Assembly (NCBI GenBank): GCA_034231615.1
Contig: CM067310.1
Coordinates: 3,764,510 to 3,828,509 of the forward strand
Reading direction: 5' to 3'
From: Meghimatium bilineatum
Lineage: Eukaryota; Mollusca; Gastropoda; Stylommatophora; Philomycidae
DNA length: 64,000 nt
Part shown: one piece after another, positions 1 to 64,000 of the stretch
Numbering within the stretch: the stretch's first letter is position 1
How the letters are laid out: every line of letters starts with the position of its first letter
Notes under the pieces: model-generated
Database searches by the model: none
Told to the model about the DNA's origin: nothing
Seen by the model: the letters and a program-made list of their open reading frames with translations, nothing else
Position numbers and translations under genes: made by a program

Positions 1-151
1 ATCTTAAGCGTTCATTCTCAAACTCCTGCTGGATATCTCTTGTAGTAAGACAATGGTCTTACTAAATTTCCAGCAGGATGCAGTCCAGAATGGAAATGTG
101 TCGTGTTGCTGTTTTATTTGCATCAATGGCCCGACACATCTGTCCTCTGCC
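1..151 (-). mobile_element. S1 SINE-like element (cut by window edge)
   Basis: Matches the S1 consensus recurring in this window: TTC-rich start on the plus strand, 'ttcattctcaaactcctgct', an internal stem-loop around 'gacaatggtc', 'ccagcagga', 'atggcccgacacat', ending near 'ctctgcc'. It sits in TOP1 intron 14, inserted in a LINE-D relic. Confidence 0.75.
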
Positions 152-686: not shown

Positions 687-35964
<35,278 letters not shown>

Positions 35965-36279: not shown

Positions 36280-36800
36280 ATAATCAATCAAGTGCCATGC
36301 GGAGTGGCGTAGATGATAGTGCTTTTCCACAACTCTGTCTCTTGTGTTGTTAATAAGTTCTTCTTCTTCAGCGTACATTCTCAAACTCCTGCTGAATTCT
36401 CTTGTAGCAGGACATGTCCTACTAGATTTCCAGCAGAATATAGTCCAGAGAATGGAATTGCATTGTGTCGCCGTTTTATTTGCGCCAATGGCCCGACATA
36501 TCCGTCTTCGGCAGGTTAATAAGTTCAGTTGGTGGCTTCTTTTTGGGCCACAGTGACAACCCATCCATAAATTTCTCTCTTTGTCTTCCTCCGTCTCTTC
36601 TCCCCTTAAACTTTCCAGTGGTTACTAAATGTTCAAGTTTTACTTTTCTCATCACGTGTCCTTAAAATCTTGAATGTCTGCTTCTAGTTCTTGCTATAGT
36701 TTGTCGTTTTACTCCAGCATCTCTGAGAACTTCTACATTAATTTTCTTGACTGTCAATGGAGTTTTCCTCATGAGGTCTCAGCAGCATGCAAGAATTACA
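36280..36800 (-). mobile_element. LINE-C relic interrupted by S1
   Basis: Minus strand right of the S1 copy: GHVMRKVKLEHLVTTGKFKG and KFMDGLSLWPKK. Left of it: TRDRVVEKHYHLRHSAWHLI, a shifted form of the ..HGT terminus. Confidence 0.65.
36361..36514 (-). mobile_element. S1 SINE-like element with perfect 12-bp TSD
   Basis: 154 bp between GTTAATAAGTTC at 36349-36360 and 36515-36526, inserted in a LINE-C relic. This is the cleanest boundary definition for S1 (5' end ..CCGAAGACGG on the minus strand, 3' end ..GAAGAAGAA). Confidence 0.92.
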
Positions 36801-37500: not shown

Positions 37501-37519
37501 TTAAAATATGTATCTCGAA

Positions 37520-37880
37520 AATAGTCAGAGGGAAATAGGAAGTATGAAACCGATATACCACTATCTCAACAGAGCAGAGCAGGTTATTATCTTCCGCCTC
37601 AGAACAGGACACAACAGATTAAACAGCCACTTAAATAGGATAAGATTGGTCCCATCACCACTGTGTCCTTGTGGGCAGGCAGGACAGACCACTGAACATA
37701 TCCTGCAAGACTGCAGCACACTAAACCAGTTAAGGGAAGAACACTGGCCCACAGAGATGGATATCCACAGAAAGATGTATGGGAGCACTGATGAGCTTTC
37801 AAATACAGCAGCATTTATTAGGAAAGCAAGACGTGCTGTGTAGACATGTCAAACTCCGAACGAGAAGAAGAAGAAGACTG
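37520..37880 (+). mobile_element. LINE-A 3' fragment
   Basis: Open frame: RAEQVIIFRLRTGHNRLNSH, LCPCGQAGQTTEHILQDC, ending ..FIRKARRAV stop, then GAACGAGAAGAAGAAGAAGA. The CPCG..H..C motif is intact here. Confidence 0.85.
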
Positions 37881-55554: not shown

Positions 55555-55712
55555 ATTCTGGCTTAAGACGGATGTGTCAGGTCGAAAGGCGCAGATAACG
55601 CAGCTTGTTGTAAAACATGACACAACGCAGATCACCCTCATACGTCCTTCTCAGGACGATCAGTGGAATGCTTTCAGAGGGTCCGCAGCAAGATGTACGA
55701 TGAAGAAGAAGA
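55555..55712 (+). mobile_element. S2-related fragment
   Basis: 'gacggatgtgtcaggtcgaa', 'gcgcagataacgcag', ending 'gatgaagaagaagac'. The middle has diverged from both S1 and S2. Confidence 0.5.
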
Positions 55713-56334
55713 CTGTGCCACTTTCCACTTTGTTGGATTTGCTTTAGCCATTTAGTTATATACATACATGAGTGCGACAAAGTTACTGTGCACTAATTTA
55801 GAGTGGTCATGACACTACATCATACGAATTGTGAGCATTTTGTGTTGGTCTGTCTAAGTGCACAGCCACTTTGTCCACACCCTATATTTTGAGAACTTTT
55901 TTCCTAATGTTAACACTAGAAAAACTACTTGGTTTATAACAATAGGCACAAACAAAATAACACAGGAGACTTAGTTTGACAGGTTACATCTATACAAAAT
56001 AACAGACTGTTTCGATCAAAATATCTGTATCAAGAAAGTAACGAAACATATGGTGGAAAACTTTTTAATAAAAAAGCACAAGATTATTGCCACTAAAAAA
56101 AATTATGTGGATCTCCCAATCACAACAATAATGTACCTTTTTAAATGAATAATTACATTTATTTGTCTTGTGGCTATCATAGAATTGATGTAGGCCAAAA
56201 AACTGACGTAGGCTTCCGAGTGATGGTCTATCCACATTTGAGTTTTTGTGTTAAACATGGCTGCCTTGAATTTAAAAAAAAAAGATGAATTTTATGCCAG
56301 CTTATCCATGTCTGGTCTAGGGCTGTTCAATAAG

Positions 56335-57330: not shown

Positions 57331-57607
57331 TCTTCTTCTTATGCGTTCGTTCTCAAACTCCTGCAGATTAGCAGGATGTAGTCCGGAGAATGGAATGCAC
57401 TGTGTCATGGTTTACAGCATTGATGCGATATCTGTGCCTTTCGGCCTGACACATCCGACTTCAGCATGACTTTGGGTCACTGACCATATATGGGATGGGA
57501 CAGCCAACTCCATCCCATAACCTCCTTAGTCACCTTTTACGACATGCGTGGAAGGTAAACAGTGTTGCTATTCTTTGCTCCCCTTTCAGGCCCGGCAACC
57601 TTCAGGC
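57331..57607 (-). mobile_element. S2 SINE-like element, full copy with 12-bp TSD
   Basis: 277 bp between perfect repeats GATCCAAGATCT at 57319-57330 and 57608-57619. Minus-strand order: head 'GGCCTGAAAGGGGAGCAAAG', 'GTGACTAAGGAGG', 'GGATGTGTCAGGCCGAAAGG', 'CATTCTCCGGACTACATCCT', 'GAGTTTGAGAACGAACGCAT', then AAGAAGAAGAA. It splits the RT frame just after YADD. Confidence 0.93.
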
Positions 57608-58419: not shown

Positions 58420-58580
58420 TTCTTCTTCTTCAGCGTACATTCTCAAACTGCTGCTGAATTTCTCTTGTATTAGGACTGCTGTCCTACTAGATTTCCAGCA
58501 GGATGTAGTCCAGAGAATTGAAATGCTCTGTGTCACAGTTTTATTTGCACCAATGGTCCAACACATCAGTCTTCAGCAGG
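58420..58580 (-). mobile_element. S1 SINE-like element with 11-bp TSD
   Basis: 161 bp between ATATTTAGTTC at 58409-58419 and 58581-58591. Confidence 0.9.
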
Positions 58581-58649: not shown

Positions 58650-58772
58650 TCATTCGTTCACGTTCATTCTCAAACTTCTGCAGATAAGAAGCATGTAGTT
58701 CAGAGAATGGAGTGTGTTGTGCGATGGTTTACAGCTTGCTCCTTTTGGCCAGACACATCCGAATTAACCATG
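58650..58772 (-). mobile_element. S2-like element, head missing
   Basis: 'ttcattctcaaacttctgca', 'gaagcatgtagttcagagaa', 'ggccagacacatccgaatta'. It lacks the S1 stem-loop insert. Confidence 0.6.
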
Positions 58773-59288: not shown

Positions 59289-59981
59289 TTACCGTACTTC
59301 ATTATTCTGTGCCACTTTAGTATCTAGATGTTTCAATCTCTCCTGCTCCAGATCAGCTTTCACCGAGACTTGATCGAAGCTTGAGTATTTTCTCTGACAT
59401 TGAGATGAGGCTGAGTCTGAGTCCCCGTCTTCCTCCTCAAACAGCTCCTCTTTAAACTCGCTTTCAAATCTATGTGAATCTCTTCTCTTGGAGATATTAT
59501 TGTTAGCTTCCTTCTTGACGAGGACTATATTCGACGATGGAGGAGGCAGTTCGGTTTGAGATTGTCGTATTTTGCTAGCGTTAGCTGGTGTTGTCAATGA
59601 AGAGTGAAGAATATTGGTATGTTCTAATTTCAAAGATGAAGGTAAAACTGATGAGGAATTTGATGACAAGTTTGAAGATGTAGATATTGGAGGCACTGAT
59701 GATGATGCTGAAGGACTTTGTTGGACTTCTGGAATCTCTGCACCTGATGTGATGGATAATTTATGATGTGGGCCAACCATCTGGATGTGTTCCGGCTGAT
59801 GTTGACTTATCTCTGCAGCCTTCAGAGTGACATCTTTATGCGTGAGAGATATACAAACATCTCCTACATTCAGCTTCTGACAGTCCAGGCCATAGCGGGC
59901 AAGGGTTCTGGATACAGAACAAGATGACCAACCTTGACCAAAGACGAAGAATGGATGCTCTAGTGTGGCCTCAACAGTCAC
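59289..59981 (-). CDS. ATXN1: Ataxin-1 terminal exon: AXH C-terminal half and tail
   Basis: 693 nt including the stop, acceptor TTTTTTCAG. It begins VTVEATLEHPFFVFGQGWSS and continues through KLNVGDVCISLTHKDVTLKA, completing AXH. Then comes a Ser/Pro-rich linker and an acidic tail. A short basic SKRRDSHRF stretch may be the counterpart of the human C-terminal RKRRWSAPE motif (NLS, 14-3-3 site and U2AF-homology ligand motif), but it lacks the Trp. The protein ends DTKVAQNNEVR. Confidence 0.94.
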   Translation of the reverse strand: MTVEATLEHPFFVFGQGWSSCSVSRTLARYGLDCQKLNVGDVCISLTHKDVTLKAAEISQHQPEHIQMVGPHHKLSITSGAEIPEVQQSPSASSSVPPISTSSNLSSNSSSVLPSSLKLEHTNILHSSLTTPANASKIRQSQTELPPPSSNIVLVKKEANNNISKRRDSHRFESEFKEELFEEEDGDSDSASSQCQRKYSSFDQVSVKADLEQERLKHLDTKVAQNNEVR

Positions 59982-62900
59982 CTGAAAAAACAGGAAGTGT
60001 AATTATATATACATATATATCTTTATAAGTAATTTCTATTTGTCATACAAGCTATTTGTCATAAAATTTGTCTTGTGTAATTAAACTTATTGTGTCCACC
60101 GGGTGTTGAACCTTTTCTCAGCCGTGAGCCTGGTTTTGTTTTAGGAAGAACTCGACAGAAGAGTTCGGCCGAGCTCAATCTCTTTTCATAAAAATACTGT
60201 TTAACAATTGTTGTTTTGTAGCCATGAAGATTGATGGGTGTTTGATTATTGGCGACAGCTGGTAAGTCATATAACTGACTTTCTGACATTTTTTTGGATC
60301 TCTCTATTCAGTTTGTTGAACTCTGAAACCTGCTTTAGTTTTTTAACTGGTCTGGTGTACTGTTTAACTTGATAATCTCTGTTCTAGACGTGTTTCATAT
60401 GTATATTGTTCTCAGGTTGTATGAAGCAGGTGTGTGTGCAGCTGTAAGTTTTACATGTGTTTCATATGTGTATTGTTCTCAGGTTGTATGAAGCAGGTGT
60501 GTGTATGTGTGTGTGTGTGTGTGTGTGCAGCAGTAATTCATCTTCAGATTTGTATATATTAAACTTGGTCATCTGTAAATAGCAGTTCATTTAGTCTTCT
60601 TCTTCAGCGTTTATTCTCAAACTCCTGTTGGATCTCTCTTGTAGCAGGACCATGGTTCTATTAGATTTCCAGCAGGATGTAGTCCAGAGAATGGAAATGC
60701 GTTGTGTCGCCGTTTTATTTGCACCAATGGCCAGACACATGCATCTTCGGCAGAGTTTATTTAGTGAGCTGTGTTCTTTATTTATTTGTCATACTAATAA
60801 CTATATCAAGATTTGTCATACTAATAACTATATCAAGATTTGTCATACTAATAACTATATCAAGATTTGTCATACTAATAACTATATCAAGATTTGTTGT
60901 CATACTAATAACTATACCAAGATGTAACTTCTATCAAGAAATACTAGTAACAACATCAAGATGTAACTTCTATGTGTTATACTAGTAACAACATCAAGAC
61001 ATCACATCTATGTGTTATACTAGTAACAACATCAAGACATCACATCTATGTGTTATACTAGTAACAACATCAAGACATCACATCTATGTGTTATACTAGT
61101 AACAACATCAAGACATCGCATCTATGTGTTATAATTGTATAATGTACATAGCTGTATCTATACAAATAAAATTGGCATAGAAAATGAGAAATAAGTGACA
61201 CATGTTCTGCAACAGACTGTGTTTCACAACTAAAATTCTAGTTACCATTCATACAGTTCAGTTATTTTGTCAATATTATGTGAAACAACAGCACATTACT
61301 ATTCTCAAACTATGACTTCATACACATTGGAGCTGTGAGACTATCACATTAGCCTCTCATACACATTGGAGCTGTGAGACTATCCCATTAGCCTATCATA
61401 CACATTGGAGCTGTGAGACTATCCCACTAACCTCTCATACACATTGGAGCTGTGAGACTGTACCACTAGCTTCTACAACATGAAAATAATTGGAATAGAT
61501 ACACTTTTTGCCGAAGATGGATGTGTCGGGCCATTGGCGCAAATAAAACGGCGGCACAACACATTTCCATTCTCTGGACTACATCCTGCTGGAGATCTAG
61601 TAGAACTGCTACAGGAGAGATCCAGCAGGAGTTTGAGAATGAACGCTGAAGAAGAAGATACACTTTTTCTTCTGCAATCAGCATCTGTGGTCATGTTATA
61701 TTGTCAGGCCTGTCATCAGGGTGAAGTCCACTGTCTTCTCCAGGTCAGAGCGGCTGCCCCATAGCTTTTGCCTCAAGTCTGTATTCTCTGGCCAGGTCTG
61801 CTATCTCTGCTCTTTGTATGTTGGGCAGTCCTGAAGTATGTGCTCCAGAGTCTGGGTTCTGAGTCCACATGGACATTTATCTGTGTATGAGATCCTTAAT
61901 CGGTAAAGGTGACCCAACAGTCTGGAGTGGCCTGTTCCAAGGCGAAATATTGTGGTCTGTTGATATCTTTGGAGTAGATGTATTTCATCATGTTCGTATT
62001 CCACTCCATTTGTTTCTTCCACTTTGCTGTGTATGTGATCTGGGTTATTGTGTTTGCTTCTCCGTAAGACAGTGGGTGTCTGTGTTGCTCCATTTCACTT
62101 CCTGCTTTTGACAGAGCATCGGCTTTCTCATTTCCCATGATTCCACAGTGTGATGGTATCCACTAAAGGGTGATAGCTGATTATTATTGATACACTGAAA
62201 TCCCATTATAACAACTTGGTCCGGACCAACAAAATATATATGTAATAACAGAAATTTGCTATATACAGTACAAACAATAAAGAATAAATATAACTGGGGA
62301 TTATCAAAAGTGTTGTTAAATAGGGACATTTTAAATAAAAGGATGCGCTATAGATGGATTCCGCAGTATTATGTTGTAAATGTAATGTGTTACATTCCCA
62401 TACAGTGGATACTATCGTATTGTGGAATACCTGGACATGAGAAAGCAGATCGTCCGGCTAAGGAGGAAGCTGCTGATGATCAACCAGATGTGACAATAAT
62501 GAACGATTAAAAGAAACAGATGATCAAGGCAATTAGAAAGCAAACTCCAACACAAGATAAATACTAAATTATGAACAGACCAGACCAAGTTGTCATTCTG
62601 CTCCTCGGAACAGATTGGCAAAACATCCATGTGTACATGTGGACAGTCACCTCAGACAGCAGAGCATGTTCTTCAGGAATTCCCATAAAATGAGAAGTGG
62701 AGATAAATGCACAGCCTAGAGAAACAACAGGGGAAAATAACTCCACAGAACTCTGTACGAGTTACAAAAGACACCAAGTTTATAGAAGAGACACAACTTC
62801 AGATATAAGCTTGTTCCAGGCGAACGAAAGAAGAAGAAGAATCCCCTAAAACTTTGCAAGTAGATACTTATTTGTACTTCAGATATAAGCAAGTTCCAGG

Positions 62901-64000
62901 CGAACGAAAGAAGAAGAAGAAGAATCCCCTAAAACTTTGCAAGCAGATACTTACTTGTACTTCAGATATAAGCAAGTTCCAGGCAATCGAAAGAAGAAGA
63001 AGAAGAATCCCCTAAAACTTTGCAAGTAGATACTTACTTGTACATGATGCTCTCCTACAGAGAAGCTGAGCATTGCTGTGCCACTATCAGGATTCTCCTC
63101 AATCTTCACCACTCTGCTAGAATCAACCTTCAGGTCTGATGAGATCTCTGCACTGTTAACAAAGTCTTCTGTTTGAAGATCTTCTACCCTTTTAAGAGTG
63201 CCATTTGCTAATTGAATAATTGAGCCTTTAAAGAAGTGGCAGGGGTACTGAAGGTGTGTGGGGTGTTCTTCATTGGGTGGAGAGATAGAGGGAGGTGTTA
63301 TGGATGGAGATGATTGGTACAGCTTTTGCTTATGCTCATTGTCAATGCAATTGTCCTCACTGTGGAGCTGCTGGTATGGGTCATGTTGTTGACCATGCTG
63401 CTTAGATAAGTTATTATCTGAGTGTTGACCAGTCACAGTCTCTCTAGCGTTGCTTGATTTTGATACACCATGAGGAGATGCTGCGTGAGCTTCAGGGGGG
63501 TGACGACTGCTTGACCTAAGGCCATCACTGTGTTGTGCTGAAGACATCTGGTTACTATGAGTCATAGATGTTGACCCAACACTAACTAATTTTGGCAGTT
63601 TGGTCACAGGCTCATCTTTGAGTCCAAACATTCCACTAACTTTGGAAGAGTCATCAAGTATGTTTGAATCTGAAGGTCTGGTTAGGATTCTGTGCTTCAG
63701 GCTCCCTTCTTTACCACTCAAAGATGATCTGGTGTACATATCACATCTCCCAGGAGGACAGTCTCTGCTTCCCCCATATTCCTTGACAACTGTGTCAAAG
63801 GATACTTTCAGACAATGTCCACTAGATGAGTATGAGCTAGGTGAGAGAACTGCTTGCTCTTCGTGTAAGCTTGATGAATTTCTATAAAGTGCCTCCCTGG
63901 AAAGTTCTCCCTCTCTGCCTTGAAGACAACTGCTTCCTTTCATACTAGCCATCTTCTCCAAATGTTGAGACGAGAGAGGATCTTGATGTGTGACTGTTGG
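59289..64000 (-). CDS. ATXN1: Ataxin-1 family protein, 3' two exons, 5' end beyond right edge
   Basis: AXH-domain protein; in animals ataxin-1 is a nuclear and cytoplasmic RNA- and protein-binding corepressor partner (for example of Capicua). Exons 63038-64000 and 59289-59981 join in phase 0 exactly where the AXH domain of human ataxin-1 continues (GEHHVQ then VTVEATLEHPFFVFGQGWSS). HBP1 also has an AXH domain but ends in an HMG box. None follows here, so ataxin-1 or ATXN1L is the better call. No polyglutamine tract is seen in the visible part. The intron of 3056 bp is packed with SINEs, LINE-A pieces and tandem repeats. Confidence 0.93.
60059..60289 (-). other. Unassigned 76-codon ORF in ataxin-1 intron
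   Basis: MSESQLYDLPAVANNQTPIN, then LHGYKTTIVKQYFYEKRLSS and GSTPGGHNKFNYTRQIL. It looks protein-like in composition but has no family I know. No acceptor/donor pair in phase with the flanking AXH halves, which join directly. Confidence 0.2.
60380..60530. repeat. Two-copy 74-bp tandem repeat with (GT)n
   Basis: 'gtgtttcatatgtatattgt' + 'tctcaggttgtatgaagcag' appears twice, the second copy extended by a GT run. Ataxin-1 intron. Confidence 0.85.
60596..60754 (-). mobile_element. S1 SINE-like element with 11-bp TSD
   Basis: Flanks GTTCATTTAGT (60585-60595) and GTTTATTTAGT (60755-60765), one mismatch. Full S1 layout. Confidence 0.85.
60775..61140. repeat. Adjacent 27-bp and 38-bp tandem arrays
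   Basis: First about 5 units of 'tcatactaataactatatcaag' + 'atttg' (27 bp), then about 5 of 'tatgtgttatactagtaaca' + 'acatcaagacatcacatc' (38 bp). The two units share 'actagtaacaacatcaaga' / 'actaataactatatcaaga', so one likely arose from the other. Confidence 0.9.
61310..61465. repeat. 39-bp tandem repeat
   Basis: Four units of 'tacacattggagctgtgaga' + 'ctatcccattagcctctca'. Confidence 0.92.
61510..61655 (+). mobile_element. S1 SINE-like element with perfect 13-bp TSD
   Basis: 146 bp between AGATACACTTTTT at 61497-61509 and 61656-61668. Starts GCCGAAGATGG, ends GAACGCTGAAGAAGA. Confidence 0.93.
61670..62170 (-). mobile_element. LINE-A 3' fragment
   Basis: Minus strand: GNEKADALSKAGSEMEQHRH (end of RNase H), then after a frameshift TTIFRLGTGHSRLLGHLYRL and KCPCGLRTQTLEHILQDCPT. 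Ends with a GAAGAAAAAG tail. Confidence 0.8.
62376..62838 (+). mobile_element. LINE-A 3' fragment
   Basis: IPIQWILSYCGIPGHEKADR (RNase H end), MNRPDQVVILLLGTD, then decayed sequence to 'cttcagatataagcttgttc' and GCGAACGAAAGAAGAAGAAG. Its 3' end takes part in the triplication at 62798-63043. Confidence 0.75.
62798..63043 (-). repeat. 83-bp triplication spanning the ataxin-1 AXH exon donor
   Basis: Units 62798-62877, 62878-62960 and 62961-63043. Each holds the LINE-A 3' end ('ttcagatataagcaagttcc'), a GAA run, 'ccctaaaactttgcaag' and, on the minus strand, GTACAAGTAAGTATC, i.e. 6 exon bases plus the donor. The rightmost is the functional boundary. The leftmost donor is mutated (GTACAAATAAG). 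Confidence 0.92.
63038..64000 (-). CDS. ATXN1: Ataxin-1 exon carrying N-terminal half of AXH
   Basis: Open for 321 codons to the window edge, ending at a donor GTAAGT (63032-63037). The first about 240 residues are Ser/His/Gln-rich and low complexity (for example QHGQQHDPYQQLHSED). From about residue 250 comes the AXH start: CHFFKGSIIQLANGTLKRVE, then DLQTEDFVNSAEISSDLKVD, ending SFSVGEHHVQ. This matches human KGSIIQLANGELKKVEDLKT closely. The donor and 6 exon bases are copied in a downstream tandem triplication. Confidence 0.95.

Follow-up and report, generated by a model that had tools for sequence, protein, structure and literature searches.

A GAA-tailed, SINE-like retroposon family of Meghimatium bilineatum, probably SIDE-like and tied to a LINE leader through a sister family

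Introduction

R2 and R2/R1 SIDEs have been described in Drosophila (PMC3414825), and Persaeus, an abundant SIDE from CR1 Zenon, makes up an average of 1.48% of its host genomes in Lepidoptera (PMC6740152). In trypanosomatids, L1Tc/ingi and SIDER/NARTc share a 5' hallmark, Pr77 (PMC8190864, PMC4035085), which in the LINE contains an HDV-like ribozyme (PMC4035085). SIDEs are termed rare in PMC6740152, and the SINE curation of PMC10294476 demanded a tRNA head, by which S1-like elements would have been filtered out; together, this perceived rarity (PMC6740152) and this requirement (PMC10294476) would cause a family as large as the one reported below, with a LINE-related head, to be overlooked.

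The present analysis concerns a stretch of 64,000 nucleotides from Meghimatium bilineatum (hereafter the window), the short GAA-tailed family S1 found in it, and the relation of S1 to a longer sister family, S2, and to a LINE, LINE-A. The literature searched held no description of S1; a survey of gastropod and bivalve SINEs (ref. 11, PMC11203168) lies outside that search, and an earlier description is possible. Among the papers listed by a full-text search with six S1/S2 strings, the only match was a single generic 10-mer, and no title was repeat-related.

Results

S1 copies in the window

The sequence-only reading of the window had counted at least eleven S1 copies, and eleven were recovered at E ≤ 1e-8 (Table 1), a looser BLAST search of the window adding short S1 fragments. 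All seven pairs of target-site duplications (TSDs) that it had named hold: five were recovered by script (11–13 bp; copies at 36349, 58409, 60585, 61497 and 29958) and two were read by eye, namely the pair at 19991/20168 (AATCTCCAT, 9 bp), which has a script score of only 3, and the pair at 22717/22815 (ATCATTACATTC, 12 bp), which belongs to an internally deleted copy outside the scripted set. The focal copy, taken whole, folds stably (z-score −2.91; 0/200 shuffles equally stable).

Elsewhere in the window, a long tandem repeat array, open in several reading frames, occupies 26752–29715 (−), and an ataxin-1/HBP1 AXH domain (Pfam PF08517) is encoded by an exon at 59289–60002 (−). A nuclear COX1 fragment is stop-free when translated with the invertebrate mitochondrial code (table 5) and not with the vertebrate code; together with the AXH domain, it indicates an invertebrate animal.

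Table 1 Positions of S1, S2 and LINE features in the window
Feature	Position	Strand	Remarks
S1 copy cut by window edge	2..150	-	
S1 copy, diverged 3' part	8618..8724	-	
Related LINE fragment with RNase H	13343..14805	+	ends GAACGAAA(GAA)n
S1 copy	20007..20159	-	TSD AATCTCCAT, by eye
S1 copy with internal deletion	22731..22811	-	TSD ATCATTACATTC, by eye
S1 copy	23687..23849	-	TSD not found
S1 copy, diverged 5' part	26527..26668	-	
S1 copy	29973..30126	+	12-bp TSD with one mismatch
S2-type copy beginning at the S1-type boundary (consensus 142)	34247..34373	-	
Left TSD of focal S1 copy	36349..36360	.	GTTAATAAGTTC; read directly; script, 12 bp exact
Focal S1 copy	36361..36514	-	(GAA)n-tailed 3' end at low coordinate; 5' end CTGCCGAAGACGG at high coordinate
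Central nested hairpin of focal S1	36376..36454	-	CATTCTC...GAGAATG; fold
S1 head of focal copy	36479..36512	-	GCCGAAGACGGATATGTCGGGCC...; S2-head counterpart; LINE-leader counterpart via S2
Right TSD of focal S1 copy	36515..36526	.	GTTAATAAGTTC; read directly; script
LINE-A 3' end	37505..37875	+	ORF C-terminus (37505-37843), then GACATGTCAAACTCCGAACGA(GAA)n
Near full-length S2 copy	57332..57599	-	96% to hand consensus; GATCTTGGATC on both sides by eye
S1 copy	58422..58577	-	11-bp TSD
S2-type copy beginning at consensus 142	58661..58772	-	
S1 copy	60596..60755	-	12-bp TSD with one mismatch
S1 copy	61510..61657	+	13-bp TSD

Abundance, ends and insertion of S1

In the genome searched (1.61 Gb in 32 contigs), a 23-base S1 tail has 16,711 exact matches and a 36-base S1 head 5,459, with none for the reversed control in either case. 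Besides the selected targets, 29 S1 copies lie in the 232,106 bases formed by the window and the flanks of fetched loci, from which a genome total of 201,437 is extrapolated; this figure, roughly 2 × 10^5, is biased, the window having been chosen for S1 and the flanks adjoining other S1 copies. The 29 unselected copies are 76–94% identical to the hand consensus. The focal copy differs at 3–5 sites from each of its six best-matching loci (L002–L007) and at 7 and 9 sites from L008 and L057, the loci compared having been picked as close matches to it; so few differences from L002–L007 show that some S1 copies are young.

The uniform 5' end noted in the window is borne out by the unselected copies, 20 of 29 of which begin at consensus positions 1–10 (one of the 20 loses its 3' side to the window edge). 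Among 30 loci selected by the tail, 24 carry a full-length target copy, the remaining six including two with common flanks (L028 and L031). Loci fetched by the exact 36-base head all run on into the S1 body (30/30), these being the first 30 of the 5,459 matches, all on one contig, with L041, L046 and L051 repeating an earlier locus or sequence.

TSDs were scored in 73 full-length copies, of which the window supplied 7 and fetched loci 66; the set includes the near-duplicates L063 and L064, the latter being omitted from the S1 alignment of 72 copies. A score of at least 9 was reached by 50 copies where swapped flanks predict 0.2, and a score of at least 11 by 33 where they predict 0.0. Among the 50, TSD length is variable (9–19 bp, with 43 at 9–13 bp), so no fixed length of 2–9 bp is seen, and many S1 TSDs start with purines that extend the (GAA)n tail. 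The S1 consensus shows no terminal inverted repeats. Given these TSDs, the one-sided microsatellite tail and the absence of terminal inverted repeats, S1 is a genuine retroposon inserted by target-primed reverse transcription.

The sister family S2 and a recurrent 5' boundary

The other GAA-tailed elements of the window led to S2, whose 26-base tail has 20,236 genome matches (control 0) and whose hand consensus, taken from an alignment of 14 fetched copies plus one from the window, is 278 bases long. S1 corresponds to the 3' half of the longer S2, from GCTGAAG onward, with a segment missing after the head and the central palindrome or hairpin enlarged. This kinship is recovered in both directions: an S1 profile finds S2 with 43.9 bits (E 1e-11), and a profile of the S2 module finds S1 with 57.9 bits (E 7e-16). 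Homology of the S2 5' end to the S1-type head was considered and rejected (245/2000 shuffles, not significant). The earlier description of S1 as a GAA-tailed SINE-like family stands for its short, mostly full-length copies and variable TSDs; it is incomplete, as S1 is not a stand-alone family.

S2 starts, assigned by the earliest BLAST piece per locus, were collected from 60 of the first 72 places listed for the S2 tail; the 12 left out are a single place and the 11 of a tandem cluster. They fall at consensus positions 1–15 in 45 loci, 16–138 in 4, 141–146 in 6 and 153–275 in 5. The six at 141–146 amount to five independent loci, L128 and L132 having common flanks; by eye, TSDs are clear in L091 and L134 and not clear in L124, L128 and L150. 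An even spread of the 15 starts that are not full-length would place about 0.35 in a 6-base window (by arithmetic). Among unselected S2 copies, 5/35 start at 142–151. A peak at 141–146 would be equally expected from an old short S2 subfamily. Since S2-type copies recur at this position, the S1 5' end probably marks either where an RNA truly begins or a fixed point at which reverse transcription stops.

Several further elements touch on these families. Eleven same-strand S2-tail matches lie at regular spacing within 110 kb (G000:C1:7898681-8009484), apparently a large tandem duplication. At window positions 55561–55740 (+), an S2-type head (55561–55629; 89% to the consensus) is followed by a different body ending GATGAAGAAGAAG, and may represent another family sharing this head. 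At 10110–10290 (−), a further GAA-tailed element with an unrelated body ends GAGTGAACGCA(GAA)n.

LINE-A and its leader

LINE-A is very abundant (70,622 first-look candidates, of which 150 were scored). Its fetched 3' ends read GAAYGAG in 18 of 20 cases and carry (GAA)2 or more in 16, with L074 and L082 showing neither feature. A near full-length 4-kb copy, L111, is bounded on each side by the 12-bp repeat AATCTAAATATT and has broken frames; its endonuclease, reverse transcriptase (RT) and RNase H domains, by their order, presumably place LINE-A in the I superfamily. Four further LINE 5' ends are present in fetched loci (L030, L019, L014 and L011). The first of these, L030:2120-2334, is an insertion of the LINE leader only, about 215 bases long with an A-rich end and the 10-bp TSD TATACCTGCA; with the 12-bp repeat of L111 and the 13-bp TSD of L110, a 5'-truncated copy, these LINE-related insertions have TSDs like those of S1. 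From L014:1537 onward, about 98 bases of leader are joined directly to LINE 3' coding-like sequence, by eye an internal deletion, and L014 departs from the leader upstream of the module that matches S2. A related LINE 3' end (GGCGAACGAAA(GAA)n) is present at window positions 62830–63010 (+) in three tandem copies spaced by about 80 bases.

The S2 head aligns to leader positions 127–160 with a score that 0/1000 shuffles reach in each of four LINE copies, and the S2-matching module lies inside the leader of all four LINE copies that extend that far. A leader profile finds S2 (S2 113–219 to leader 81–187; 22.2 bits, E 4.3e-5 for a nominal 2 Mb) and does not list S1; conversely, the S2-module profile gives weak leader matches, with E 0.008 for L030 and 0.35–0.62 for the other copies. 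The S1 head itself has no significant match to the leader (its score is equalled by 951, 42, 399 and 92 shuffles out of 1000 for the four copies), and an S1 profile does not find the leader, giving 3.5 bits at another place. With head and profile both failing on the leader by themselves, the link from S1 to the LINE is indirect, via S2.

Through this link, S1 begins inside the leader, away from the LINE's own 5' end. Local alignment of the first 141 S2 bases to the LINE 5' end is not significant either (762–773/1000 shuffles). At the 3' terminus, S1 and the LINE have in common GAACG/GAAYG just before (GAA)n, with no longer match beyond these roughly five bases and the microsatellite. None of the 20 LINE 3' ends read shows the 3' stem-loop of S1 and S2, and the true partner may therefore be a different LINE.

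Beginning exactly at the +1 that the TSD defines, the first 74 bases of L111 match an HDV-like double-pseudoknot descriptor, against a background of 11 fits in 3,757 positions, a rate that is flattering because the descriptor was written after L111 had been seen. Among the five LINE 5' ends, two fit the strict descriptor and three a relaxed one, the misfitting ends being L019, with a deletion, and L014, which has diverged; Rfam gives no HDV match for the LINE 5' end. The HDV-like elements, near 3880–4079 (reverse) in L111 and also in L030 and L011, comprise P1 CCCCATC/GATGGGG, P3 TCC/GGA, P4 and J4/2 AACTAAGA. Judged by this fit, the LINE-A leader may hold an HDV-like self-cleaving ribozyme.

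Small-RNA, promoter and fold searches of the S1 head

At gathering thresholds, Rfam has no match anywhere in the window. At E ≤ 10, the focal S1 copy gives three weak matches only (L25 leader, a group II intron fragment and SNORD43; best E 1.4), a near-consensus S1 copy two (best E 1.8) and six S2 loci five, the best to a Giardia snoRNA (E 0.1 and 1.6 in two loci); tRNA, 5S, 7SL and ribozyme families are absent from all of these. The initial observation that S1 lacks a tRNA, 5S or 7SL head is therefore upheld at this threshold. The suggested SINE with an unusual promoter is more aptly taken as a probable SIDE-like element related to a LINE. ARAGORN predicts no tRNA gene across the window; when its threshold was lowered, S1 still gave none and S2 a single low-scoring antisense tRNA. 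The best A- and B-box pair in S1 is equalled by 266/300 random sequences, in a weak test whose Alu control scored 54/300; this control being itself unclear, the scan leaves room for a weak Pol III promoter in S1. No run of four T was found in the S1 or S2 consensus.

A hammerhead-type S1 head, an idea taken from CTGAAG/GAAA, was rejected, with no Rfam match and misfitting stems. No HDV-like fold was found at the S1 or S2 5' end at offsets 0–9, nor, with a relaxed descriptor, at the S2 5' end at offsets 0–3. RNAalifold returned weak structure only for the S1 alignment (−5.69 kcal/mol), which was set aside. The S2 head folds into TGTGTCA/TGACACA around GCC-GAAA-GGC (z −2.48; 3/200 shuffles equally stable), and the corresponding S1 bases are TGTGTCG and CGACACA around GCC-ATT-GGC, so that an A-U pair of the S2 head is G-C in S1; comparing the two consensus sequences gives this one covarying pair. 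In its minimum-energy fold, S1 favours a pairing that differs from this S2-type head stem.

Discussion

We regard S1 as probably a SIDE-like, non-autonomous retroposon of LINE-A or a close relative. It would move in trans by target-primed reverse transcription, with LINE-A as the presumed source of the enzyme. Its head would belong to a module that the LINE also carries in its 5' leader, an enlarged stem-loop would form its body, and its terminus, GAACGNN(GAA)n, resembles the LINE terminus. S1 RNA would begin in or close to the head, from a promoter, start site or cleavage site of LINE type and not from a tRNA-type Pol III promoter. LINE-type TSDs and target-primed insertion, as in a SIDE, are found in S1; as a SIDE it is incomplete, since it starts within the leader, matches it via S2 and has a stem-loop whose origin is not traced to the LINE.

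In size and copy number, and in having a uniform 5' end and a folded head, S1 is SINE-like. These features could belong to a Pol III SINE whose small-RNA-gene head is too decayed to be recognised, in which case the LINE leader would have captured a SINE head. The lack of TTTT in both consensus sequences and the room that the box scan leaves for a weak promoter agree with such an origin. We nevertheless judge it rather unlikely, as neither S1 nor S2 matches tRNA, 5S or 7SL even at the permissive Rfam threshold, ARAGORN offers nothing beyond the antisense prediction in S2, most random sequences equal the best box pair of S1, and the module sits in the leader of every LINE copy that reaches it. 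A DNA transposon (MITE) might be suspected from the long central palindrome; lacking terminal inverted repeats, tailed by (GAA)n on one side only and flanked by TSDs of 9–19 bp among its 50 best copies, S1 makes this vanishingly improbable, and we take it as excluded.

The recurrent boundary bears on another alternative, in which S1 is a 5'-truncated, promoterless lineage of S2, made by a fixed RT stop and founded by one copy that landed near a host promoter. S1 does equal the 3' half of S2, S2-type copies repeatedly end at the same boundary, and just upstream of it the S2 consensus holds a perfect short hairpin, GGGTCA-G-TGACCC, all of which such a stop would accommodate. Set against this are the extrapolated copy number of about 2 × 10^5 and the presence of several diagnostic variants among the 72 aligned copies, which suggest multiple S1 sources and transcription of their own; we consider this origin improbable.

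Beyond the SIDE-like reading itself, a wider proposal can be put forward tentatively, as possible and on balance doubtful: that in S1, as a highly successful SINE-like family, a short module within the leader of an endonuclease-RT-RNase H LINE fixes where the RNA begins, and that leader, S2 and S1 were built by exchanging units upstream of a conserved boundary, GCYGAAG, so as to reach some 10^5 copies without a small-RNA-gene head. As S1 and the short S2-type copies share one recurring boundary, which lies inside the LINE leader, the RNA start of such elements becomes directly testable.

Compared with the described systems, S1 is like the molluscan tRNA-headed SINEs with conserved domains (PMC10294476, PMC11121367) in being short, abundant and probably LINE-dependent, and unlike them in having no detectable tRNA head. 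SIDER/NARTc, in other hosts, are likewise short elements with a 5' hallmark common to their LINE, and the LINE-A leader too may hold an HDV-like ribozyme; in LINE-A, however, this possible ribozyme lies upstream of the shared module, and the scan did not find it in S1 or S2. R2 SIDEs bear the 5' ribozyme of their LINE (PMC3414825), whereas S1 is without one, and S1 departs from both R2 SIDEs and Persaeus in beginning within the leader, in matching it through S2 only and in a 3' stem-loop absent from the LINE ends read. Like them (PMC3414825, PMC6740152), it is short, non-coding and probably LINE-mobilised, with a 5' part probably related to a LINE leader, a 3' terminus resembling that of a LINE and LINE-type TSDs, and, like Persaeus, it is abundant (PMC6740152).
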